Part shown: positions 22,651 to 48,899 of the stretch, one piece after another
Layout of the letters: every line of letters begins with the position of its first letter
Position numbering within the stretch: the stretch's first letter is position 1
Source of the DNA: Halpernia humi
GTDB lineage: Bacteria; Bacteroidota; Bacteroidia; Flavobacteriales; Weeksellaceae
Reading direction: 5' to 3'
Assembly: GCF_900108025.1 (NCBI RefSeq)
Contig: NZ_FNUS01000003.1
Span: 186,001 to 250,000, forward strand
DNA length: 64,000 nt
Program-made: the position numbers and the translations under genes
Notes under the pieces: model-generated
Told to the model about the DNA's origin: nothing
Database searches by the model: none
The model's input: the letters and a program-made list of their open reading frames with translations, nothing else

Positions 22651-23313
22651 TTATGCTAAAAAAGCCTCAATCTGCAATTCTGCCATATCTAAAACCTTTG
22701 CATTTCCCTTTGTGGCAAATACGGAAAGTTCGGTGCAAGCAATCATAACGTATTGGTTTTGAGAATATTTTTTAATTAAAGATTGAAAATATTGTATTTG
22801 GCTTTCAGACGCCTTTTCATCATAAACCAATTTTCTAAAACCATCAATCCACTTTTGGTCTTCGCCCGAAGTTTGGGTAATTTTAATGTTTTCCGTACTA
22901 AATTTTTCCTTTAAATAGTCGGAATTCATAGTATAAATGGTTCCGAAAATAACGATTTTAGAAATGTAGTTTTCTTTCAAATATTTAATGGTTAAATTTA
23001 CTGGATGGCAAATTTCACCACGGTAATGCATTAAATCTAATGTTTCGTGCAATGTAATATTTGGAACGATTAGTTTTGAAATTCCCAAATCTTCAATTTG
23101 CTTTAAATAGGCCTCAATTTTTGGTTTTAACACAGAAAATTGATTAGGCAAAAAAGGATTTACATCCTGAAAATCAATTTGATACAGAATAAACGGACAA
23201 GTAGAGAACCCCCCATTAATTTCATTATATTTTTGATGAATTCTTTGCAAATAATAGTTGGTAGATTCTTTTCCTAACCCTAAAACGCCTTTTATTGGTA
23301 ATTCTGAACTCAT
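22651..23313 (-). CDS. Asp/Glu racemase-family protein lacking the first catalytic Cys
   Basis: This 220-residue protein has the Asp/Glu/hydantoin racemase fold. The second catalytic site is intact (ACTE, Cys193). At the first site, where racemases have PCNTAH, the sequence is P84-N85-I-T-L-H, so the Cys is missing. Two-base racemisation is therefore doubtful. A one-Cys reaction such as decarboxylation or isomerisation, or loss of activity, is more likely. Its start overlaps the EgtD stop by ATGA, so it is translationally coupled to the ergothioneine genes. Confidence 0.75.
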   Translation of the reverse strand: MSSELPIKGVLGLGKESTNYYLQRIHQKYNEINGGFSTCPFILYQIDFQDVNPFLPNQFSVLKPKIEAYLKQIEDLGISKLIVPNITLHETLDLMHYRGEICHPVNLTIKYLKENYISKIVIFGTIYTMNSDYLKEKFSTENIKITQTSGEDQKWIDGFRKLVYDEKASESQIQYFQSLIKKYSQNQYVMIACTELSVFATKGNAKVLDMAELQIEAFLA

Positions 23314-24263
23314 TTTTTAGTTAAAATATAATCTGCAAAATAGTTTTCAGAATCCAAGAATTTTTCCTGAATTTCCATATTAGAATTTTCTAGAATTTTA
23401 TTTAAAATTTTGTCATTATACTTTCGGGAAACTTCCGTAGTAATCAATTCTCCTTCGGCAAATTCAAAAGATTTATTTAATGCTTTAATGAAAACACTTT
23501 GTTTAATTTTGCTTTTTAAAAAACTTTTTGCGATGCCTTCTTCTTCCTCGTAATAGGGAAAATGATCAAATTTCTCCAGATTAAAATCAGCGCCGAATTC
23601 ATGATTAATTCTCTCTAAAAGATTAATATTAAAGGCTTTTGTAATCCCTGCGCTATCATTATACGCAGGCAAAACAATGTTTTTTGATTTAATTAAATCT
23701 AAACCCAGCAACAATTTTTCGCCCCATTTTAAATTATCAGAAAGTTTGTGCAAAAAATCGTGCGCAACTTCATCATTCAGGTTTCCTAAATTTGAACCGA
23801 TAAACAAAATTATTTTTGGGTTCTTGGACTGAAAAAGCGCTTCCAAAACCTGAAAATATTCGCCTTGCATGGCTTCAATATGCAAATTTGGAAATATCTT
23901 TTTGAGTCTTGTTGAAATTACATCTAAACTATTTTGGGAAATATCTACCGGAATATATTTGAATTTTAGGTGTTTTTCCAAAAGTTTTTCTAATAAATAT
24001 TGCGTTTTTTTGCCGTCTCCGGCGCCCAATTCTATCAGTTCAAATTCTTGATTTTCATTGATATTAAAAGCAGAAATTATGGCCTCGCTTTGCTCCTTGA
24101 AGATTTCCATTTCGCAATTGGTGAGATAATATTCGGGCATCTCCATTATTTGTTGAAAAAGTTGATCTCCTTTCTTATCGTAAAAATACTTAGAAGAAAT
24201 ATGTTTCACTTTTTGGCTTAATCCGTCGTTTACATCCTTTAAAAAAGTGGTGTTTTTAGTCAT
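23310..24263 (-). CDS. egtD: L-histidine N-alpha-methyltransferase EgtD
   Basis: The 317-residue protein matches the EgtD/DUF2260 methyltransferase family: an N-terminal substrate-facing segment with KYFYDKKGDQLFQQIMEMPEYY, then the S-adenosylmethionine loop ELGAGDGKKTQYLL, and later IGSNLGNL. It trimethylates histidine to hercynine, the first step of ergothioneine synthesis. I start it at ATG 24263, which overlaps the EgtB stop (ATGA); the in-frame ATG at 24293 would lie inside egtB. Confidence 0.85.
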   Translation of the reverse strand: MTKNTTFLKDVNDGLSQKVKHISSKYFYDKKGDQLFQQIMEMPEYYLTNCEMEIFKEQSEAIISAFNINENQEFELIELGAGDGKKTQYLLEKLLEKHLKFKYIPVDISQNSLDVISTRLKKIFPNLHIEAMQGEYFQVLEALFQSKNPKIILFIGSNLGNLNDEVAHDFLHKLSDNLKWGEKLLLGLDLIKSKNIVLPAYNDSAGITKAFNINLLERINHEFGADFNLEKFDHFPYYEEEEGIAKSFLKSKIKQSVFIKALNKSFEFAEGELITTEVSRKYNDKILNKILENSNMEIQEKFLDSENYFADYILTKK

Positions 24264-25411
24264 TTTGCTAATCTTATTCCTGTTATTTGCCATCTGTATT
24301 TTGGGTGGAAAAAATTTCTGTAAGTTTTTCTTTCGTGCCCTTTTGGTGTGGCAGTCGAAGAACCGCGCAAAACCATTTGGTTAATCATAAATTTTCCGTT
24401 GTATTCTCCCACTGCGCCTTCAGCGATTTTAAATTTTGGGTATGGAAGATATGCGGAATAAGTCCATTCCCATCTTTTTCCCCAATTTAATTGGTTGGCT
24501 GCGACTTCCCATTCAAATTCTGTGGGTAATCTTAAACCTTTCCAAGCCGCGAATGCTTGTGCTTCGTAGAAAGAAATATGCGTTAAAATATGATTTGGCT
24601 CGATTGGCTTTAAACCTTCCAAGGTATAAGAAAACCATTTTCCCTCAATTTCTTGCCAATAAAGCGGCGATTTTATTTCGTTTTCACACACCCAATTCCA
24701 AGCTTCATCTAGCCAATATTTAAAATTTTCGTAACCGCCGTCTTTCATAAATTCTAGAAATTCCCCATTTGTGACCAAATGTTTTGAAATTTCAAAATCA
24801 TGCAAATAAACCTTGTGCCGTCCTTTTTCGTTATCAAAATGAAAACCTTCGCCTTCAAAACCAATTTCATAAATACCTTCTGGGATTTTTAACCAGCCCG
24901 CCGTTTCATTTTCTTGAGCCGTCAAATTAAAGCCTATTTTGTAAACAGGATGTGTCGGATTATAAGAAAAAGTGTGTTTTAAGTCTGTAATAAGCAGTTC
25001 CTGATGTTGTTGCTCGTGATTGATTCCTAAAATAATTAATTCTTCAAGTTCAGAATTTTTATTGTTTTCTAAAAGTTTTTCGATGTGAGAATCAACATGT
25101 TTTCGGTATTCGTAAACCTCTTCAACAGTCGGTCGCGTGTTTGTTCCACGTTCGGTTCTAATCGCTCTTTCGCCGATGGCGTGGTAATAACTATTAAATA
25201 GAAAAGAAAAATGTGGATTGAATATTTTATAATCTTTAAAATATTTCTTTAAAATCATTTCCTCAAAAAACCAAGTAGAATGACTCAGGTGCCACTTTGG
25301 CGGGCTTGCGAAATCCACTGGTTGCGGAATGTAATCTTCTATTTCCAAAGGCTTACACAACTCAACTGAGTAATTTCTGGTTTCCTTAAATTTTTCTAAC
25401 AATTTCTGCAT
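24260..25411 (-). CDS. egtB: ergothioneine biosynthesis sulfoxide synthase EgtB
   Basis: The 383-residue protein has an N-terminal DinB-like domain with the iron triad H44 (HLSHSTWFFE), H132 and H136 (NHEQQHQE), then a formylglycine-enzyme-like C-terminal domain (GLRLPTEFEWEVAA...WEWTYSAY...RGSS). It forms the C-S bond between hercynine and a thiol (Cys or gamma-glutamyl-Cys) using oxygen. No EgtA, EgtC or EgtE gene is beside it, so the final lyase step must be encoded elsewhere. It is first in a three-gene coupled operon. Confidence 0.9.
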   Translation of the reverse strand: MQKLLEKFKETRNYSVELCKPLEIEDYIPQPVDFASPPKWHLSHSTWFFEEMILKKYFKDYKIFNPHFSFLFNSYYHAIGERAIRTERGTNTRPTVEEVYEYRKHVDSHIEKLLENNKNSELEELIILGINHEQQHQELLITDLKHTFSYNPTHPVYKIGFNLTAQENETAGWLKIPEGIYEIGFEGEGFHFDNEKGRHKVYLHDFEISKHLVTNGEFLEFMKDGGYENFKYWLDEAWNWVCENEIKSPLYWQEIEGKWFSYTLEGLKPIEPNHILTHISFYEAQAFAAWKGLRLPTEFEWEVAANQLNWGKRWEWTYSAYLPYPKFKIAEGAVGEYNGKFMINQMVLRGSSTATPKGHERKTYRNFFHPKYRWQITGIRLAK

Positions 25412-33787: not shown

Positions 33788-33803
33788 TGTTTCACGTGAA
33801 ACA
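33788..33803. promoter_or_regulatory. parS site, ParB-binding centromere (left)
   Basis: TGTTTCACGTGAAACA is a perfect 16-bp palindrome and identical to the universal chromosomal parS consensus. It lies 11 bases before the mnmG start codon. Confidence 0.9.
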
Positions 33804-33814
33804 ATTTTAAAATT

Positions 33815-35677
33815 ATGATAAACGAAATATACGACGTTATCGTTGTTGGCGGAGGTCACGCTGGTTGTGAAGCCGCTGCAGCCGCTGCAAATTTAGGGTC
33901 AAAAACACTTTTGGTAACTATGAACATGCAAACCATCGGGCAGATGAGTTGCAACCCCGCAATGGGCGGAATAGCCAAAGGACAAATTGTGCGCGAAATA
34001 GACGCAATGGGCGGCTATTCAGGAATAGTAGCCGATAAATCTGCCATACAGTTTAAAATGCTCAATCTTTCCAAAGGTCCCGCAATGTGGTCTCCCAGAA
34101 CACAAAACGATAGAATGCTCTTCGCAGAAGAATGGAGAATTGCCCTAGAACAAACACCAAATCTCGATTTCTTTCAAGATATGGTAAAAGAATTAATCAT
34201 CGAAAACAACCAAGTTTGTGGCGTAAAAACATCATTAGGAATATCAATAAAATCTAAATCTGTTGTCTTAACGAATGGTACATTCCTAAATGGCTTAATC
34301 CACGTTGGCGATAAGCAATTAGGCGGGGGTAGAATGGGCGAACCAAAATCATTTGGCATCACAGAACAACTGGTAAGTTTAGGCTTTGAAGCAGGAAGAA
34401 TGAAAACCGGTACTCCACCAAGAATTGATGGTAGAACACTGGATTACAGCAAAATGGAAGAACAAAAAGGGGACGAAAATCCGCAAAAATTTAGCTTTAC
34501 AGACACTCCAAAAATTACAAAACAATTAAGTTGTCATATTGCGTACACCAACGAAAAAGTACACGATATTTTACGCACTGGCTTCGAAAAATCACCTATG
34601 TTTAATGGTACAATCCAAAGTATAGGTCCTAGATATTGCCCAAGTATTGAAGATAAAATAAATAGATTTGCAGAACGAAACCGCCATCAACTTTTTGCAG
34701 AACCAGAAGGCTGGAGAACAGTAGAAATCTATTTGAATGGTTTTAGTTCATCTTTACCAGAAGATGTTCAAATAAAAGCAATGCAAGCCATTCCAGGCTT
34801 TGAAAATGCAAAAGTTTTCCGCCCAGGATACGCCATCGAATATGATTACTTCCCGCCTACTCAACTTAGCCATACTTTGGAAACAAAATTAATAGAAAAC
34901 CTATATTTCGCCGGACAAATAAACGGAACTACTGGCTACGAAGAAGCGGCCGGACAAGGCTTAATTGCAGGTATAAATGCACATAACAAAGTACATGAAA
35001 AACCAGAATTTATACTAAACAGAGACGAAGCCTACATCGGTGTTCTAATAGATGACCTAATTACAAAAGGAACCGAAGAACCTTACCGAATGTTCACATC
35101 CAGAGCAGAATACCGCTTACTTTTAAGACAAGATAATGCAGATATTCGTTTAACTGAAAAATCATTTAAAATAGGTTTAGCAAAAGAAGAACGTTTAAGA
35201 AAAGTTGAAGAAAAAATAAATAAAAGTTCTGAATTAGAAGCATATTTGGCTAAAACTTCTTTAAAACCAAGCATTATAAACCCTGTTCTAGAAAGTGTAG
35301 AATCTGCACCCGTCGATCAAGCCTACCGCGCAACACAAATATTAACTCGTCCAAATGTGACGCTGAAAACTTTAGAAGACATACCCGATTTAAAAGAAAA
35401 TATTGAGAGATATTCAGCAGAAGTGCAAGAGCAAGCACAAATAAATATTAAATATAAAGGCTATATAGAAAAAGAAAAAGCCAACGTAGATAAACTCACA
35501 CGATTAGAAAACATCAAAATATCCGAAACTTTTGAATACTTAAATATTAAATCACTATCTATGGAAGCGCGCCAAAAACTGACTAAAATAAGACCAAAAA
35601 CATTAGCGCAAGCAGGTAGAATAAGTGGCGTATCGCCTTCTGACATTAATGTCTTGATTATTTATATCGGTAAATAA
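33815..35677 (+). CDS. mnmG: tRNA uridine 5-carboxymethylaminomethyl modification enzyme MnmG (GidA)
   Basis: The 620-residue protein has the FAD loop VVGGGHAGCEAAAAAA at the N-terminus, then MSCNPAMGGIAKG, GTFLNGLIHVG and the C-terminal helical region with AGRISGVSPSDI. With MnmE it modifies the wobble uridine of certain tRNAs. It is flanked by parS sites on both sides. The G/C balance of its coding strand is unusual for the window (hand count of five lines: 57 G, 65 C), unlike the right-hand genes. Confidence 0.93.
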   Translation: MINEIYDVIVVGGGHAGCEAAAAAANLGSKTLLVTMNMQTIGQMSCNPAMGGIAKGQIVREIDAMGGYSGIVADKSAIQFKMLNLSKGPAMWSPRTQNDRMLFAEEWRIALEQTPNLDFFQDMVKELIIENNQVCGVKTSLGISIKSKSVVLTNGTFLNGLIHVGDKQLGGGRMGEPKSFGITEQLVSLGFEAGRMKTGTPPRIDGRTLDYSKMEEQKGDENPQKFSFTDTPKITKQLSCHIAYTNEKVHDILRTGFEKSPMFNGTIQSIGPRYCPSIEDKINRFAERNRHQLFAEPEGWRTVEIYLNGFSSSLPEDVQIKAMQAIPGFENAKVFRPGYAIEYDYFPPTQLSHTLETKLIENLYFAGQINGTTGYEEAAGQGLIAGINAHNKVHEKPEFILNRDEAYIGVLIDDLITKGTEEPYRMFTSRAEYRLLLRQDNADIRLTEKSFKIGLAKEERLRKVEEKINKSSELEAYLAKTSLKPSIINPVLESVESAPVDQAYRATQILTRPNVTLKTLEDIPDLKENIERYSAEVQEQAQINIKYKGYIEKEKANVDKLTRLENIKISETFEYLNIKSLSMEARQKLTKIRPKTLAQAGRISGVSPSDINVLIIYIGK

Positions 35678-35684
35678 AACAAAA

Positions 35685-35700
35685 TGTTTCACGTGAAACA
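35685..35700. promoter_or_regulatory. parS site, ParB-binding centromere (right)
   Basis: This is a second, identical TGTTTCACGTGAAACA, 8 bases after the mnmG stop codon and 10 bases before the start of the next gene. With the left site it brackets mnmG about 1.9 kb apart. Confidence 0.9.
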
Positions 35701-36336: not shown

Positions 36337-37161
36337 ATGGAAATAAAAGACCATTTTCTTACCCAAGAATTATTCGAAATAAAAGAAACGGAAATAAAAG
36401 GCGTTTTTAAAACTACACCCATTCCGGCTGATATTTCGAAATATTACGATAGTAAGGATTATATTTCTCATCATCAAGATTCGGGAAGCTTAAAGGAAAA
36501 ATTCTATAAATATTTGCAAGGATTTAATTTAAAATATAAAAAAAATATTCTTTCAAAATTTATTCAAACCGGTCCAAAAATCTTAGATTATGGTTGCGGC
36601 GCAGGAGAATTTTTGAAATATATAGAAACAAATTTTCAAACTTTAGGTTTTGAACCAAATGCATCTGCTAGAAATTCGGCTTTACAAAAACTAACAAAAA
36701 CTAAAATAATTGATGACTTAAATTTAGTTGAAAATGAAAGTTTAGACGCCATTACTTTATGGCATGTTTTCGAACATGTAGAAAATCAAGATGAAATTTT
36801 AGACTTATTTCATCAAAAATTAAAAGAAGGCGGAATTTTAATTATTGCCGTTCCAAACCCCGATTCTTTTGATGCAAAACATTATGGAAAATTTTGGGCG
36901 GCTTATGATGTTCCGCGTCATATTTTTCATTTTACAAAAAGCGGAATGGAAAATTTAATTAAAGCAAAAAGCGAAAATTGGAATCTAAAAAAAATTCGCC
37001 CTCTTCTACTCGATTCTTTTTATATTTCAATGTTGAGCGAAAAATATAAAAAATCTTCTCTATTTTGGGTAAAAGGTTTCATTTTTGGAGCGATTTCTAA
37101 TTTTAAGGCCTCAAAAAACTACGAATTTTCTAGTTTGATATATATTATCGAAAAAAAGTAG
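36337..37161 (+). CDS. class I SAM-dependent methyltransferase
   Basis: The 274-residue protein has the glycine-rich motif I ILDYGCGAGEFLKYI (about 85-99), the acidic end of strand 2 (GFEPNASAR), then LWHVFEHVENQ and LIIAVPNPDSFD. This resembles methyltransferases that act on small molecules or lipid/sugar acceptors in surface-polymer loci, but the substrate is unknown. It follows the YiiX-like gene by 6 bases and ends 36 bases from a convergent lipoprotein gene. Confidence 0.75.
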   Translation: MEIKDHFLTQELFEIKETEIKGVFKTTPIPADISKYYDSKDYISHHQDSGSLKEKFYKYLQGFNLKYKKNILSKFIQTGPKILDYGCGAGEFLKYIETNFQTLGFEPNASARNSALQKLTKTKIIDDLNLVENESLDAITLWHVFEHVENQDEILDLFHQKLKEGGILIIAVPNPDSFDAKHYGKFWAAYDVPRHIFHFTKSGMENLIKAKSENWNLKKIRPLLLDSFYISMLSEKYKKSSLFWVKGFIFGAISNFKASKNYEFSSLIYIIEKK

Positions 37162-37197
37162 ATAATTGAATTTTGACAGGTTTATGAAAGCGAAATT

Positions 37198-37842
37198 TTA
37201 CCAGAAATTGCCATTTTTTAAAATTCTATGAATTCTTTCTTCCGAAAAATGACTTTCGATTTTTAAAGTATCTTGGTAAATGAATTTTTTTATTTCTTTA
37301 GTTTTAAAATTTATTTCAGAAATTATAGGTTTTCTATTTTCTGAACTTTCAAGCAAAACTAAAATATCATCATTTTTCCAGTAAGCATTTTCTACCCAAA
37401 CCGAAGAACCCAAAAAATCTATTCTCTCAATAGATTTTTTTGAGATATCTACAAGATTAATTTCTTGGTCTAACGCAAAATTAATTTTACCATCGGCTAA
37501 ATTCCAATTATAACCATCAAAATCTAAATATTTATCTTTTGCTTTATTGAATATTAAAAAGTTGGTATAAACTTTATCAAATTTCTTATCAAAAATTCCA
37601 TACACATTTCCTTTTCTAAAAATTAAGGCTTTCTTTGAAGTAAATTCAAATTTATTTAATGAAAATTTAGAATCTAATTTTTTGTAATAATCAACCCAAT
37701 TTTTTAAAATTAAATTATCATCGCTTGCAAAAAATAAATCTTTATTTTTAGTCTCGAAATTTTGAGAATTATACTTATCTGATTTTGAACAACTTAAAAT
37801 TACAAAACAAGAAAATAGCGAAATTAAAAAAAGTTTTCTCAC
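37198..37842 (-). CDS. lipoprotein, unknown function
   Basis: The 214-residue protein has a lipobox (VILSC, Cys18). The mature part alternates short beta-strand-like stretches (KNWVDYYKKL, VYTNFLIFN, ALDQEINLVDIS) that suggest a beta-propeller-like or all-beta domain, but no family is recognised. It starts 7 bases after pgk and is likely cotranscribed. Confidence 0.6.
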   Translation of the reverse strand: MRKLFLISLFSCFVILSCSKSDKYNSQNFETKNKDLFFASDDNLILKNWVDYYKKLDSKFSLNKFEFTSKKALIFRKGNVYGIFDKKFDKVYTNFLIFNKAKDKYLDFDGYNWNLADGKINFALDQEINLVDISKKSIERIDFLGSSVWVENAYWKNDDILVLLESSENRKPIISEINFKTKEIKKFIYQDTLKIESHFSEERIHRILKNGNFW

Positions 37843-37849
37843 AAGATTT

Positions 37850-39040
37850 CTATTTCGTAATCGCAGCCACGCCAGGAAGTTCTAATCCTTCCAAACTTTC
37901 CAACATCGCACCACCACCAGTGGAAACATAACTTACTTTATCTTCGTAACCGAATTGTTTCACGAACGCAACGCTATCTCCACCGCCAACTAAAGAAAAA
38001 GCACCCATTTTAGTAGCTTCAGCAATACTATCGCCTAAAGCAATTGTTCCATTTGCAAAATTATCCATTTCAAAAACGCCAATTGGTCCATTCCATAAAA
38101 TGGTTTTAGAATTAATGATCACATCATTAAATAACAAACGCGTTTTAGAACCCGCGTCAAGCCCCATCCAGCCTTCAGGAATTTCATAGATATTGACTTC
38201 TTGCTGCTCGGCTTCATTATTAAATTCTTTCGCAACAATCGTGTCTGTAGGTAAATACACTTTCACATTATGTTTTTTCGCCTCTTCCAAAATCTCTAAT
38301 GCCAATTGCATTTTATCATCTTCTATCAAAGAATTTCCAATGTGGCCACCTTGCGCTTTTATAAAAGTAAAAGCCATTCCACCGCCGATAATTAAATTAT
38401 CTATTGCTGGTAAAATGTTTTCAATAATTGTAATTTTTGTGGACACTTTAGATCCACCAAGAATTGCAGTAACCGGTTTTTCACCAGAATTTAATACTTT
38501 ATCTATTGCTTTTAATTCATTTTCCATCAATAAACCGAAAAATTTAGTTTCAGGGAAAAATTGCGCAATTACCGCAGTTGAAGCATGCTCTCTATGTGCT
38601 GTTCCAAAGGCATCGTTTACATATACATCTCCGTATTTTGATAATTTTTCAGCAAAATCTTTATCGCCTTTTTCTTCTTGGCTATAAAATCTTAGATTTT
38701 CTAAAAGTAATATTTCTCCACCTTTAAGCTCAGACACCAACTCCTGAGTCTTATCTCCTAAAGCGTCTTCAGCAAATTTTAATTTTCGTCCCAAAACCTT
38801 TTCAATCTCTGGAATTATATTTTTTAAAGAGTATTTTTCATTCTTTTCACCTTTTGGTCTGCCAAGGTGAGTCATCAAAATTACAGCACCACCTCCATTC
38901 AAAATTAAATCTAAAGTTGGTTTCACTGCGGAAATTCTAGTTCCATCTGTAACCTCTAAATTCTCATTTTGCGGCACATTAAAATCCACACGAACTAAAA
39001 CTTTTTTATCTTTGAAATCGAAATCTGAAATATTTTTCAT
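37850..39040 (-). CDS. pgk: phosphoglycerate kinase
   Basis: The 396-residue protein has VLVRVDFNVP near the N-terminus, MTHLGRPKGE, and the C-terminal nucleotide site ending GGGDSVAFV ... STGGGAMLESLEG. It transfers phosphate from 1,3-bisphosphoglycerate to ADP in glycolysis. A perfect -7 box (39077-39084) lies 36 bases upstream. It is the first gene left of the candidate replication origin and is transcribed away from it. Confidence 0.95.
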   Translation of the reverse strand: MKNISDFDFKDKKVLVRVDFNVPQNENLEVTDGTRISAVKPTLDLILNGGGAVILMTHLGRPKGEKNEKYSLKNIIPEIEKVLGRKLKFAEDALGDKTQELVSELKGGEILLLENLRFYSQEEKGDKDFAEKLSKYGDVYVNDAFGTAHREHASTAVIAQFFPETKFFGLLMENELKAIDKVLNSGEKPVTAILGGSKVSTKITIIENILPAIDNLIIGGGMAFTFIKAQGGHIGNSLIEDDKMQLALEILEEAKKHNVKVYLPTDTIVAKEFNNEAEQQEVNIYEIPEGWMGLDAGSKTRLLFNDVIINSKTILWNGPIGVFEMDNFANGTIALGDSIAEATKMGAFSLVGGGDSVAFVKQFGYEDKVSYVSTGGGAMLESLEGLELPGVAAITK

Positions 39041-39076
39041 GGCTTGCTATTTTTTTATTTTACGAATTAACTTGAA

Positions 39077-39084
39077 CAAATTTA
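39077..39084 (-). promoter_or_regulatory. -7 box (TAAATTTG) for pgk
   Basis: On the minus strand this is a perfect TAnnTTTG match, 36 bases before the pgk start codon. It marks the left edge of the AT-rich spacer. Confidence 0.55.
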
Positions 39085-39647
39085 AGATTTCTAAACGGGT
39101 TTAAAAAAGATTACATTCGAAAAGTTTCCTCATTCCCCAAAGTCATACATTCATCATTATATTTCTTTATTATAAAAAAAATATATGAGTACTGTTGTTG
39201 TAGTCTCTGGAATTGTTGAAAAGTAATTTAAAATAGTTTACCGCAAAATGTTAAAGTTTAAATCATATTTTAATCACTTTTTAAGATATTGAAAATTAAT
39301 GATTTAGCATACTTATTAACAAATGTTGATAAACTTGAATTTATCAATCTGTTGACAATTTCGTTATGGAAAAAGTTTGCAAAACCTAATAATTATTTTA
39401 AAAACTTTTTTAGAAATTTTAAAAATTAATTTGCATTAGGAATAATTATTGGAAGAAAAAAGCAAAATAATTATAAACTTATCCACACTTATTTGTGAAA
39501 TTCTTAACATATTTTAAGATAGTTTATAGTTTAGGTAAAAAACATCTCATTTTCAGTAGTTTATAGATTTTTTTTAATTGTTTGAACGTTTTTTAGTTGC
39601 AAATCTCTATTTTATTTTAGAAAAGTGACTATTAAACTTTTATATCT
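39085..39647. other. candidate chromosomal replication origin (oriC)
   Basis: The 0.56-kb spacer between divergent pgk and rpiB has no gene, only ORFs under 15 codons. It has long A/T-only runs. A perfect DnaA box TTATCCACA lies at 39479-39487. Near-boxes are TTATTAACA (39313-39321), TGTTGATAA (39324-39332, complement TTATCAACA) and TTATCAATC (39341-39349), clustered within 40 bases. Repeated AGTTTATAG (39521-39529, 39558-39566) and AT-rich DNA after the perfect box would fit an unwinding region. The parS pair is 3.5-5.5 kb to the left. By hand count, the coding-strand G/C balance changes between mnmG (57:65) and rnr (78:39). This is a prediction. Confidence 0.6.
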
Positions 39648-39655
39648 TAAATTTG
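39648..39655 (+). promoter_or_regulatory. -7 box (TAAATTTG) for rpiB
   Basis: This perfect TAnnTTTG match is 13 bases before ATG 39669, giving a very short leader. It marks the right edge of the AT-rich spacer. Confidence 0.55.
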
Positions 39656-39668
39656 TATAAAAAGCAAA

Positions 39669-40100
39669 ATGAAGAATATTGCCATTGCAGCAGATCACGC
39701 TGGTTTCGAATACAAGGAATTAATAAAGGAACATTTAAAATCTAGCTATAAAGTGCAAGATTTCGGCACTTTTTCGAAAGATTCTGTTGATTATCCAGAT
39801 TTTGTTCATCCTGCGGCAAGTTCTGTGGAAAATGGTGACAATGTCTTTGGAATTTTAATTTGTGGCAGTGGCGAAGGTGTTTCTATAACCGCAAATAAAC
39901 ATCAAAATATTCGTTGTGCACTTTGTTGGGAAGTAGAAATTGCGAAATTGTCAAGACAACACAATAATGCAAATATGATTGCGATTCCTGCCCGATTTGT
40001 TTCAGAAAAATTAGCGTTAGAAATGATAGATGCTTTTCTTGAAACAGAGTTTGAAGGCGGAAGACACCAAAATAGAGTAAATAAAATTAGTTGTTGCTAA
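39669..40100 (+). CDS. rpiB: ribose 5-phosphate isomerase B
   Basis: The 143-residue protein has the RpiB layout: AADHAGFEYKE at the N-terminus, DFGTFSKDSVDYPDF, ICGSGEGVSITANKHQNIRCALC with the catalytic Cys/His region, and NNANMIAIPARF. It interconverts ribose 5-phosphate and ribulose 5-phosphate. It is transcribed away from the candidate origin. A 143-base spacer without recognised signals separates it from rnr. Confidence 0.93.
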   Translation: MKNIAIAADHAGFEYKELIKEHLKSSYKVQDFGTFSKDSVDYPDFVHPAASSVENGDNVFGILICGSGEGVSITANKHQNIRCALCWEVEIAKLSRQHNNANMIAIPARFVSEKLALEMIDAFLETEFEGGRHQNRVNKISCC

Positions 40101-40243
40101 ACGTTTTTTTAAACTTAGTTCGTCTAAACATATTTCAATATTGAAAAAAAGTAAAAATTGAAAAAAAGGAAATTTTTTATTTCCATAAAAGATTATCAGA
40201 AAAATTTGATAATTATCTAAAACATTTAATAGAAAATTAAAAA

Positions 40244-42400
40244 ATGCCAAAAAAGTCAAAATATCATAGCGATAAAAACAACAACAAACTCCAAGAAATC
40301 GGACGTTTAATTGTAAGATTTATGAATGGAAATTCTACCAAAATCTACAACTATAAACAGATTTCTGATGGGATAGATTATAAAAATCCCCGCCAAAGAG
40401 AGCAAGTCATTCAAGCTTTGCATAAATTATTAGCAAGCGAAAAAATAAAAGAAGTTGAGAAAGGAAAATATATTATTAATTTAAAAATAAAAGGCACTTT
40501 AACAGGAAAAATTGATTTTAACCAAAGTGGAAATGCTTATGTGAAAGTAGATGAACTGCCAGATGACGTTTTTATTCATCAAAAAAATGTGAAAGATGCT
40601 TTGCAAGGCGATAAAGTTTTGATTGTTACTTATAATTTTAAAGGAAAAAAATTAGAAGGCTCTGTTGTAGAGGTTTTGGAAAGAAATCGCACAGAATTTG
40701 TGGGCACTTTTCAATTGATTGAGCATAAAGATTTTGGCTTCGTTATTTGCGACAAAAAAGTAATAAATACGGATATTTTCATTTCGAGAAACCATTTCAA
40801 TGAGGCGAAAGATGGGCAGAAAGTAATTGTAAAAATGCTTGGTTGGGAAGCGGGAAATAGGAACCCGTCAGGAGAAATTATTCAGGTTTTGGGCGAACCA
40901 GGGAATCACGAAACAGAAATCCATTCAATATTAGCAGAATATGGTTTGCCATACGAATTTCCGTCTGATGTAGAACTCGAAGCCCAGAATATTGATACAT
41001 CTATTGGTGGAAAAGAATTAGAAAAGCGCCGAGATATGCGCAATGTTTGCACTTTCACCATAGATCCGAAAGATGCAAAAGATTTTGATGATGCGCTTTC
41101 CATTCAAAAATTAGAAAACGGAAATTGGGAAATAGGCGTTCACATTGCAGATGTTTCACATTATGTGCAGCCTGGAACTTTGTTGGACGATGAAGCCTAC
41201 AAAAGAGCAACTTCCATTTATTTGGTAGATCGAGTGGTTCCAATGCTTCCAGAAGTTTTAAGTAATGAAGTTTGCTCACTTCGGCCAAACGAAGAAAAAT
41301 ATACCTTTTCGGCTGTATTTGAAATGAATGATAGAGCAGAAGTTGTAAAAGAATGGTTTGGTAGAACCATCATCTATTCCGATCGCCGTTTTGCTTATGA
41401 AGATGCACAGGAAAGAATTGAAACAAAAGAAGGCGATTTGGTGGATGAAATTTTAACTTTAGACCGGTTAGCAAAAATTTTAAGAAGAAAAAGAATTGAA
41501 AATGGCGCGATTACTTTTGATAGAAGCGAAGTGCGTTTTAATTTAGATGAAAACAGCCAACCAATTGGCGTCTATTTTAAAATAAGCAAAGATTCTAATC
41601 ATTTAATAGAAGAATTTATGCTTCTCGCGAATAGAAAAGTATCAGAGTTTGTTTCGCTTAAAAAGAATGGCGTACCTACGCAAAATACATTTATTTACAG
41701 AATTCACGAAGATCCCGATCCTGCAAAATTGGAAGCATTGCGAGAATTTGTAGGCACTTTTGGCTATAAAATGGATTTGGCAAACACCAAAAAAGTAGCG
41801 CAATCTTTAAATAAATTATTGCACGATGTGAAAGGAAAAGGCGAAGAAAACATGATAGAAACTTTGGCGATGCGCTCTATGAGTAAAGCCATCTACTCCA
41901 CCGAACCAATCGGGCATTACGGTTTAGGCTTCGATTATTATTCGCATTTTACATCGCCAATTAGGAGATATCCAGATTTAATTGCGCACCGTTTGTTGCA
42001 ACATTATCTGGACGGCGGAAGATCGCCCTACAAGCCAGAATATGATGAAAAATGCAAACATTGCAGTTCTATGGAACGTTTGGCAGCCGATGCAGAAAGA
42101 GATTCCATCAAATTTATGCAAGTGAAATTTATGCAAACCCACCTAAATGAAGAATTTACAGGCGTTGTTTCTGGCGTTGCAGAATTTGGTTTTTGGGTGC
42201 AAATCCCAGAAAACGGTGCAGAAGGTTTAATAAAATTAAGAGATTTAATGGATGATACCTATCAATACGATGCAAAAACACACGCCGTTTACGGTAAAAA
42301 AACAGGCAATAAATACCAGTTGGGCGACGAATTAAGAATTAAAGTGGTGAAAGCCAACCTTATTGCAAAACAACTCGATTTTAAAATTGTTGAAAATTAA
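40244..42400 (+). CDS. rnr: ribonuclease R
   Basis: The 718-residue protein has an N-terminal winged-helix and cold-shock domains, then the RNB catalytic centre (TIDPKDAKDFDDALS, with the Asp cluster binding magnesium), FTSPIRRYPDLIAHR, and a C-terminal S1 domain (EFTGVVSGVAEFGFWVQI). It degrades structured RNA 3' to 5'. The coding strand is strongly G-rich relative to C (78 G to 39 C in five lines). Confidence 0.93.
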   Translation: MPKKSKYHSDKNNNKLQEIGRLIVRFMNGNSTKIYNYKQISDGIDYKNPRQREQVIQALHKLLASEKIKEVEKGKYIINLKIKGTLTGKIDFNQSGNAYVKVDELPDDVFIHQKNVKDALQGDKVLIVTYNFKGKKLEGSVVEVLERNRTEFVGTFQLIEHKDFGFVICDKKVINTDIFISRNHFNEAKDGQKVIVKMLGWEAGNRNPSGEIIQVLGEPGNHETEIHSILAEYGLPYEFPSDVELEAQNIDTSIGGKELEKRRDMRNVCTFTIDPKDAKDFDDALSIQKLENGNWEIGVHIADVSHYVQPGTLLDDEAYKRATSIYLVDRVVPMLPEVLSNEVCSLRPNEEKYTFSAVFEMNDRAEVVKEWFGRTIIYSDRRFAYEDAQERIETKEGDLVDEILTLDRLAKILRRKRIENGAITFDRSEVRFNLDENSQPIGVYFKISKDSNHLIEEFMLLANRKVSEFVSLKKNGVPTQNTFIYRIHEDPDPAKLEALREFVGTFGYKMDLANTKKVAQSLNKLLHDVKGKGEENMIETLAMRSMSKAIYSTEPIGHYGLGFDYYSHFTSPIRRYPDLIAHRLLQHYLDGGRSPYKPEYDEKCKHCSSMERLAADAERDSIKFMQVKFMQTHLNEEFTGVVSGVAEFGFWVQIPENGAEGLIKLRDLMDDTYQYDAKTHAVYGKKTGNKYQLGDELRIKVVKANLIAKQLDFKIVEN

Positions 42401-46373: not shown

Positions 46374-48899
46374 TTAATAAGGAGGATTTTCTGACGGTTT
46401 AATTCTTTTTCTCGGCGGGCCACTTTCACCACTGCCATTGGTATTGATGCCTTGTGGATTGTTGGGGTTTCTAGAATCATCAATTCTTCGCTTTTCGGGA
46501 ATGGCTCTATTTTCAATTGGTTTGCCAGGCCCATTTGTATTTTGCCTGTTATCGTTTACATTTCCAGGTATTTTCTGGCCATTTTCATTAGTCATTTCCA
46601 CAGAAATATCACTTTTTAAATATTTCAACATTTCTTTGGCTTTTTCACCTTCTGGCGTTTTAGCATAATTTAAAGCAATTTGTTCTAATTGTAAAATCAT
46701 AATTTCTTTGCCCGAAGTTTTCCCCGCATTGAAGGCATTCAGCAAGGCAAATTTTGGCACCAAACCATCTTTCGGATATTTTGACAAGGCAGAATCTATC
46801 ACGGCTTTCGATTCTTCAAATTTCTCTTTTTCATATAAATCAAAAGCTTTCGAATACGTTTTTTCTACATCGGCTGAAGATTGCGAGAAGGTATTATTTT
46901 TCGGGTTTTTCACATATTCAGCATACGAACTGTATGGGAAGTCGCTCAAAATAATTTGTTTAGCGCGCTCTGCTGCGGCAGGATTTTTTTCATAATTCAT
47001 CGCAAATATTTGGTACAAAGCCTGCAATTTTACATCATCTTCGGGTTTATTATCTACCAAATCATATAAGGTTTTGGTGGCTAATTTTGTATTTCCAAAA
47101 TAGGCATCAAACATTCTTCCTAGGCCTAAACTTGCCGTGTCTCGCGCTTTTTTTAAGGCTAAAATTTCTGCGCCATCGGTTGGTATTTTTTCAATATAAA
47201 ATTCTGGTTCCAATCGCCGCGGATCTTTTGTTGAAGTTACGCCCAAAGCCTCATTTTTAAGATCTTGAATGCTAGTTGTGCGGGCAGAAGTTCGCCAATT
47301 ATCAATTAATGTTCGGTCGCCCCAAACGCGTTTAAAATCAGACTCACCTTTTGAAATGGCATTTTGATTCGCAAAATAAAAACCTTTTGAGCCTGAACCG
47401 CTTCCAAAATCTTGAAAATTATTTCCGCCCGATGTATTAAAAACTGAATTAGCATTGTAGTCACCCGTATCAAAACCTTTGCTGCGTTCGTCGCGTTTTT
47501 GCTGCGCCAGTTCTGCGTCTTCTTTTGCTTTTAGAGTAGCGATATATTTATTAAAGTAGGCCACTTTTTCTGGCTCTGTCATTTTAGCCAAATTTAAAAT
47601 GCTGTCATTTTTTTTAATTAAATAATAATTCGCCGTAAGTTTTTTAATGTTTTTAGATTGCTCTGCGAGCAAAATTTTGGTGGGTTGATAATTCATCACA
47701 GCCAAAGCAGAATCGTAATAAGCACCTGCAGAGAGATAATCGTCTTTTTCAAAATAAGATTTTCCGATTTCATAAAAATCCAAACCACGAATTTGCGGAT
47801 CCGATATTTTTTCCTTCAAAGATTTTGCAAAATACTCTTGCGCTTCATCTTTTTTCCCCGCTTTATTTGCCATTAATCCCAAAGCATAATAAAACTCGTT
47901 TTTCCGACTTTCATAAGTTCCTTTTTTGCTAATTTTTTCCAAATAAGTTTTCGCGCCATCATAATCGTCCTCTTTCCCGTTAAAGGTTTTCGCGATTTCT
48001 ACTTGTGCTTTCACTTCAAATTCAAAATCGTTGGCGTTTTTATAAGCCGTTACAAAACTTTCTCTCGCATCTTCATTTTTGCCCAAACTTGCTAGAATTT
48101 GCCCGCGTAAAAATGCAATTCTACTGCGGATTTTTCTGTTTTTATTTAAGGCGTAAGCGTTTGAAAGTTCATTGATGGCTTCATCTTTTTTACCAGATTT
48201 TAGTAGCATTTCAGAATAATAAAGGCTGGCCAGTTTGCGATATTTTTTTTTGATTTTATCCTTTTTTAAGTCTAAAAATAGTTCGTTCGAGCGGTAATAA
48301 TTTCCCATTTTAGAATAAGCAAGCGCTTCGTAAACCCTTGCTAAAGGAATTCTTTTGTCTTTTTTCATGTGGACAAAAATGTAATTTAATGCATCTAAAC
48401 TTTCTAAAGCTTTGTTATCATAAATGCGCGCTTGAGCCAAAATCAAATGCGCATCAAACATTTTTTTGTTTTTTTCTACACCGTTTTTTAGCACAGAATA
48501 TTTTTCAATTGCTTTTAAAGCTTTGGCTTCTGAAATTTGTAAAATTGAAACGCCCTTGCTGCCGCCATTGTTAAGGTTATCATTATCAATTTGTGACGGC
48601 GGACCGCTGCGCCCTACTGAAAATTGTGGTGCGTTTTCTTCAGGATTATTTTCATTTAAACCATTTAAAATTGAAGTATCATCTTCATAAGTAAGCAGTT
48701 GAATGTATGGTGCATAAAAGTTGTCTTTGTGTGCTGTTGTTCTGTTTTTTAATTCCGTTTCCAGCGCAGATTTGCTATTAAAAAGCGTGTTGTAATAGGT
48801 GAAAAAGCCTTTCATAAAAGTAGAATCACTCTTTTTCTTTCGCGTGGAGCAAGAAGCAAGGATTAATATTGAAATAAGAAAAAATAATAGTTTTTTCAT
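46374..48899 (-). CDS. porW: type IX secretion / gliding lipoprotein PorW (SprE)
   Basis: The 841-residue protein has a lipobox (ILASC, Cys17) and a helical N-terminal part rich in TPR-like units (YFNKYIATLKAKEDA, AQEYFAKSLKEK, AESFVTAYKNAND). The start TFMKGFFTYYNTLFNSKSALE matches the SprE/PorW family required for T9SS secretion and gliding. The C-terminal ~80 residues are Pro/Asn/Gly-rich and end in a basic stretch (PPRKRIKPSENPPY). It has its own promoter box and a leader similar to that of the MscS gene. Confidence 0.8.
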   Translation of the reverse strand: MKKLLFFLISILILASCSTRKKKSDSTFMKGFFTYYNTLFNSKSALETELKNRTTAHKDNFYAPYIQLLTYEDDTSILNGLNENNPEENAPQFSVGRSGPPSQIDNDNLNNGGSKGVSILQISEAKALKAIEKYSVLKNGVEKNKKMFDAHLILAQARIYDNKALESLDALNYIFVHMKKDKRIPLARVYEALAYSKMGNYYRSNELFLDLKKDKIKKKYRKLASLYYSEMLLKSGKKDEAINELSNAYALNKNRKIRSRIAFLRGQILASLGKNEDARESFVTAYKNANDFEFEVKAQVEIAKTFNGKEDDYDGAKTYLEKISKKGTYESRKNEFYYALGLMANKAGKKDEAQEYFAKSLKEKISDPQIRGLDFYEIGKSYFEKDDYLSAGAYYDSALAVMNYQPTKILLAEQSKNIKKLTANYYLIKKNDSILNLAKMTEPEKVAYFNKYIATLKAKEDAELAQQKRDERSKGFDTGDYNANSVFNTSGGNNFQDFGSGSGSKGFYFANQNAISKGESDFKRVWGDRTLIDNWRTSARTTSIQDLKNEALGVTSTKDPRRLEPEFYIEKIPTDGAEILALKKARDTASLGLGRMFDAYFGNTKLATKTLYDLVDNKPEDDVKLQALYQIFAMNYEKNPAAAERAKQIILSDFPYSSYAEYVKNPKNNTFSQSSADVEKTYSKAFDLYEKEKFEESKAVIDSALSKYPKDGLVPKFALLNAFNAGKTSGKEIMILQLEQIALNYAKTPEGEKAKEMLKYLKSDISVEMTNENGQKIPGNVNDNRQNTNGPGKPIENRAIPEKRRIDDSRNPNNPQGINTNGSGESGPPRKRIKPSENPPY

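Follow-up and report, generated by a model that had tools for sequence, protein, structure and literature searches.

In many bacteria the chromosomal origin of replication lies beside dnaA. The 64-kb stretch of DNA analyzed here (the window; positions 186001-250000 of the 323,571-bp contig C8, in a genome of 3.12 Mb and 12 contigs) contains parS sites and a long AT-rich spacer between pgk and rpiB, and it raises the question of whether replication of this chromosome starts here, away from dnaA, as an initial annotation of the window had proposed. The nearest named rpiB neighbours of the host come from Frigoriflavimonas (80%), followed by Kaistella, Epilithonimonas and Chryseobacterium, and the host is therefore placed in the Chryseobacterium clade. 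Judging from sequence comparisons, we consider it highly probable (roughly 0.92) that this Chryseobacterium-clade bacterium has its chromosomal oriC in the pgk-rpiB spacer. An origin away from dnaA, as proposed, is supported by the minimum of the GC skew of C8, by conservation in related genomes and by the location of dnaA on a different contig (C2).

The candidate oriC (39041..39668) is a spacer of 628 bp with a GC content of 21% that separates two divergent genes: pgk, encoding phosphoglycerate kinase, on the left (37850..39040, minus strand) and rpiB on the right (39669..40100, plus strand; TIGR01120, above cut-off). The best match of pgk is to NF010569, at 507 bits, below the cut-off of 883, with the model matched in its Pgk part only. 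No open reading frame of at least 80 amino acids was found in the spacer, which can thus be called geneless and extremely AT-rich, as first described. The divergent -7 boxes (TAAATTTG) described at its ends are also present: the box at 39077..39084 (minus strand) probably belongs to the pgk promoter and that at 39648..39655 (plus strand) to the rpiB promoter, and the two face outwards and are paired in a 13-nt perfect inverted repeat. The -7 motif is not enriched across the window (104 found, 109 expected), and a sigma-70 promoter scan of 38900-39800 was uninformative (8 predicted, 5.8 expected). No terminators were predicted in the same interval, and no Rfam elements reached gathering scores in 37000-41000.

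A stability scan of the 64 kb shows that the window's least stable 500 bp begin at 39158, within the spacer. The spacer is thus AT-rich intergenic DNA, as looked for in an oriC, and unwinding is predicted in it. Its least stable 100 bp by nearest-neighbour stability (39382..39481), a candidate DNA unwinding element, rank eighth among the separate least stable 100-bp stretches of the window; they lie between a pair of near-DnaA boxes and an exact DnaA box, overlapping the start of the latter.

The exact box, TTATCCACA at 39479..39487 (plus strand), had been noted in the initial annotation as a perfect DnaA box, which it is; three such boxes, including this one, occur in the window against 0.40 expected. 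A cluster of near-boxes had also been described at 39313-39349. An inverted pair does stand at 39313..39332, consisting of TTATTAACA on the plus strand (two mismatches to the exact box) and TTATCAACA on the minus strand (one mismatch), in a block that is partly kept in an alignment of 42 spacers, whereas the third near-box, at about 39340-39349, is poor and was not counted. Compared with 2000 Markov copies of the spacer, the presence of one exact box has a p value of 0.005 and that of two boxes with at most one mismatch a p value of 0.009; none of the copies has three boxes matching TTAT[CT][CA]ACA, a pattern written after the sequence had been seen. The whole genome contains 48 exact boxes, against 17 matches of a backward control pattern, so that a single box means little by itself, and the weight of the DnaA-box evidence comes from conservation and position. 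The cluster in the spacer, with one exact box and two near-boxes, is above chance and conserved in relatives, yet sparse by comparison with the oriC of E. coli, which is richer in DnaA boxes.

Both parS sites of the window (TGTTTCACGTGAAACA, at 33788..33803 and 35685..35700) are exact matches and stand on either side of mnmG (gidA; 33815..35677, plus strand; TIGR00136, 852 bits). They are the only exact parS sites in the genome and lie 5.3 and 3.4 kb to the left of the spacer, in agreement with the distance of 3.5-5.5 kb first given; parS sites this close by are usual, if not defining, for an oriC. The exact parS pattern is present in 29 of 40 genomes, the host's own included, and absent from 11, among them the family members G003, G006 and G014. 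The distance from parS to rpiB ranges from 2.5 to 54 kb in the 22 genomes that have both on one contig, and is less than 10 kb in 12 of these; the remaining parS-bearing genomes either have parS and rpiB on separate contigs (five) or have no rpiB match (two).

The cumulative GC skew of C8, computed over joined stretches that cover 317,571 of the 323,571 bp, has its minimum at 39165 (C8:225165), inside the pgk-rpiB spacer. The skew is negative immediately to the left of the spacer and positive immediately to the right, the direction already suggested by hand counts of G and C in mnmG and rnr. A skew minimum elsewhere, for example beside dnaA, had been named as the finding that would speak against an origin here; C8 has its minimum in the spacer, and dnaA on C2 lies by a skew maximum. 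Thus the minimum of cumulative skew that is looked for at an oriC is present, and it is modest in the host's own contig: 5-kb blocks to the left and right differ with a Mann-Whitney p of 0.022, and a free change-point permutation gives a p of 0.082. Intergenic DNA gives G/C counts of 3368/3398 to the left and 2012/1834 to the right. When fourfold sites are compared inside a single gene strand, the two sides show no significant difference (p = 0.10 and 0.64), so gene orientation may account for much of the C8 minimum; divergent genes promote a local skew minimum in any case. The replication skew of fourfold sites is too weak to be decisive.

The spacer could, in principle, be just a long divergent promoter region, with the boxes serving transcriptional control and the skew minimum arising from the divergent genes. 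We consider this very unlikely. The two outward -7 boxes and the fourfold skew without significant change within gene strands agree with it, but it leaves unexplained why the genome's sole parS pair is found here, and it also fails to account for three features of the relatives, namely the skew of complete genomes, the enrichment of boxes and the fate of the boxes after a rearrangement.

The skew signal is stronger in complete relatives, sampled in 20-kb stretches, than in C8. In the 3.94-Mb genome G008, with the arms split at the observed extremes, one arm has negative skew in 16 of 19 sampled stretches and the second has positive skew in 17 of 21; the interpolated minimum is at about 2.85 Mb and the maximum near 0.87 Mb. 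Within a contiguous 280 kb of this genome the minimum falls at 2,855,655, with rpiB at 2,867,202 and dnaA at 97 (the record starts at dnaA), so that the G008 minima are 11-16 kb from rpiB. In G002 (2.04 Mb) all 13 stretches sampled from 140 to 1220 kb are positive and all seven elsewhere are negative; the minimum is beside the parS-pgk block, and dnaA is within the negative arm. G005 is a poor global test because its interpolated minimum is at a contig junction, with rpiB 21 kb from the contig end; the minimum of its last 90 kb is 10.5 kb from rpiB, and its dnaA is in the positive arm. In all three sampled relatives, therefore, the skew minimum is near the mnmG-parS-pgk-rpiB block and not at dnaA, which a promoter region would not explain. 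For G021 and G027, 80-kb stretches have their minima at 1,032,465 and 1,457,211, about 150 bp or less from the pgk-rpiB spacers, and G037 has a local minimum about 19 kb from rpiB; the local minima of G005, G008 and G037 thus lie 10 to 19 kb from this gene. Local minima of this kind are only supportive, since they are favoured by the divergent pair.

The arrangement of the block was compared across 80 named loci, of which 49 (L006-L054) are Chryseobacterium-type and 31 (L055-L085) are mostly from Pedobacter; this split follows identity rank, was set after the results had been seen and leaves Bergeyella cardium (L068) in the second part. Of the 49 Chryseobacterium-type loci, 46 have pgk and rpiB in divergent orientation, six of these with a gene in between, and 43 have at least one upstream parS inside the locus (in two of the six exceptions the left flank is short). 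Among the other 31, pgk is present in one and parS in none. Some family members thus depart from the arrangement: no pgk was found beside rpiB in L031, L040, L051 or L068, and the last of these, from a relative, has neither pgk nor parS at its rpiB locus. In the genome set, examined with flanks of about 1.5 kb, pgk is divergent next door in 20 of 30 rpiB loci (own included) and not in 10.

Conservation extends to the boxes. Across 48 spacers, no 9-mer is more enriched than the exact box (28 of 48, 0.13 expected). In the alignment of 42 whole spacers, which includes the window and L065 and omits the six loci in which another gene separates pgk from rpiB, the exact box is found in 28 and a box with at most one mismatch in all 42; the six omitted loci all carry boxes in the part nearest to pgk, one of these boxes being exact. 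When target spacers are compared with 83 control intergenics (other ORF-free stretches of at least 250 bp in the same loci), the exact box is present in 26 of 42 targets and 1 of 83 controls (Fisher p = 8e-15, with related species not independent). The check on pgk-rpiB spacers of related genera that had been suggested for this locus thus speaks in favour of an origin, and the excess over controls is the second feature that a promoter region would leave unexplained. Each of the 20 pgk-rpiB spacers of the genome set has at least one box-like site; no exact box was found in those of G005, G008, G021 and G027. Two other features of the alignment and the spacer set concern single stretches: TGTTGTTG, at 39193-39200 on the pgk side, is kept across the 42 spacers, and the second most enriched 9-mer, CTCAACAAC (20 of 48 spacers), belongs with it. 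In Elizabethkingia spacers (L018 and L046) two exact boxes form a close palindrome, TTATCCACA-3 nt-TGTGGATAA.

The third feature comes from G002, which is rearranged such that rpiB (at 103 kb) no longer adjoins the group of pgk, mnmG and parS, which stands at 155-159 kb. Upstream of pgk, this genome still has AT-rich DNA containing TTATTCACA and TTTTCCACA, and the skew reaches its local minimum at 146.7 kb, 8 kb from this box-bearing DNA and 43 kb from rpiB. Since boxes, parS and skew minimum all stay near pgk, the origin element seems to be tied to pgk and parS and not to rpiB; a shared promoter region does not explain why boxes and parS remain with pgk once rpiB has split off.

A further alternative, which we regard as highly improbable, places the origin within tens of kilobases of here in a different spacer, such as one next to mnmG or parS. 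Skew minima give the position only to within 10-20 kb in G005, G008 and G037, and the legend of one figure of a Flavobacteriaceae chromosome marks 'oriC (mnmG)' (PMC12843772), both of which would suit such a location. The conserved box-bearing AT-rich DNA, however, sits in the pgk-rpiB spacer, and the 1 in 83 frequency of exact boxes in other intergenics of at least 250 bp argues against those neighbours.

A place beside dnaA is common, but not defining, for an oriC, and the pgk-rpiB spacer does not have it. Host dnaA is a single match at C2:504896-506245 (459.5 bits, against a TIGR00362 cut-off of 343.9). Its product carries a C-terminal GGKDHSTV stretch, which we take to resemble the known box-reading motif, and reading of TTATNCACA by host DnaA is putative. 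On C2, four stretches at 100 to 420 kb are positive in skew, five from 600 kb on are negative and 1-20 kb is slightly negative; the maximum, located in the joined 445-545 kb, is at C2:485126, some 20 kb away from dnaA, as would fit a nearby terminus. No exact DnaA box was found within 40 kb of dnaA, the nearest being at C2:460886. An origin beside dnaA on C2, with the pgk-rpiB place acting as a segregation centre only, has general precedent among bacteria and a counterpart in the wider group in Melioribacter, for which an origin is predicted between dnaA and dnaN (PMC3534657), but its probability is close to nil given this skew maximum, the lack of nearby exact boxes and, in G002, G005 and G008, the position of dnaA inside an arm of uniform sign.

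If the pgk-rpiB spacer is the origin, the general model of DnaA-dependent origins allows the following steps to be inferred. DnaA, supplied from its distant gene, would bind both the strong 39479 box and the weaker pair at 39313-39332, and bound DnaA would open the AT-rich stretch between the boxes, which is least stable at 39382-39481. Helicase would then be loaded and forks would leave to the left via pgk-mnmG and to the right via rpiB-rnr, and ParB on the two parS sites beside mnmG would subsequently segregate the new origins.

An origin of this kind is already known, and its position has probably been predicted in a neighbouring genus. In Elizabethkingia meningoseptica G4076, Ori-Finder reports an oriC of 649 bp (740,720-741,368) that has three DnaA boxes with at most one mismatch and is 1.9 Mb from dnaA at 2,613,273 (PMC8994065). 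In E. miricola (L018) the pgk-rpiB spacer measures 650 bp and has two exact boxes and one with a single mismatch. Because length, boxes and distance from dnaA agree, the published in silico origin is probably the same spacer, although the passages that describe it leave the flanking genes unnamed (PMC8994065). Our search of the open PMC literature found no paper in which an origin is assigned by name to the pgk-rpiB spacer. In a study of 12 gut bacteria, including Bacteroides caecimuris, origins were placed by parS and skew and were not systematically associated with dnaA (PMC10197239). The parS consensus is the same as in the host and the origins were likewise called from a parS cluster and skew, whereas those bacteria belong to other orders and were studied by Hi-C and read coverage, compared with sequence alone here. 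In Blattabacterium Bge, which has no dnaA, the origin was placed by skew alone (PMC2768785).

The B. subtilis-type oriC (BUS) has two DnaA boxes and DnaA-trios (PMC8287927). A likeness to it is seen in 11 of the 42 spacers, where the main box is followed by TTATTCACA at a step of 10 bp, often with a weaker further box. The host spacer differs in having neither this tandem second box nor a trio run above chance: its longest run of 5'-TAG-like trinucleotides is three (p = 0.65 versus shuffled copies). A DnaA-trio element was rejected for the spacers at large, since only one of the 48 scanned fell below p 0.05 by the same comparison.

What is more novel is that dnaA and oriC have lastingly stayed apart across the family. 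In all 34 single-contig family genomes, from 148 searched, dnaA is 0.19-0.50 chromosome lengths from rpiB (median 0.34; more than 0.25 in 32); these genomes are related and give no independent statistic, and rpiB serves as a proxy for the origin that is off by about 50 kb in G002. One speculative and rather unlikely explanation is that the family's origin has largely been anchored to the mnmG-parS-pgk-rpiB block, with dnaA retained in a later-replicating part, such that initiator dosage would rise only late in each round and delay re-initiation. If true, this would be a built-in re-initiation delay, opposite to the usual design with dnaA at the origin, and the lasting separation allows a simple test of initiation dosage control. 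There is also a practical consequence: some records of the family are numbered from dnaA (for example, G008, G021 and G161) and start 0.27-0.36 of a chromosome from rpiB, and hence far from the likely true origin. In these genera the pgk-rpiB spacer should be used instead when replication rates are estimated, gene dosage is studied or origin plasmids are built.

Exact boxes less than 100 bp apart are found at two other places in the host genome, on C9 and C11. The inverted pair at C9:17015/17037 (C9:17015-17045, L233) is just upstream of a ParA-like gene, whose product starts MAKIIGIANQKGGVGKT (translated by eye), and may represent DnaA control of a partition gene. The second inverted pair, C11:148233/148304 (148233-148312, L237), has starts 71 bp apart and is upstream of an open frame; it is possibly a DnaA titration or control site. 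As rival origins both were rejected: the five sampled stretches of C11 are all positive in skew, and the C9 pair has no parS, with a mixed skew in four sampled stretches of C9 that is not strictly excluding.

Within the window, other gene content includes PorW/SprE of the type IX secretion system (46374-48899), less than 10 kb from the candidate origin, and, at 23310-25411, matches to EgtB (above cut-off) and EgtD (just below cut-off), which correspond to ergothioneine synthesis.
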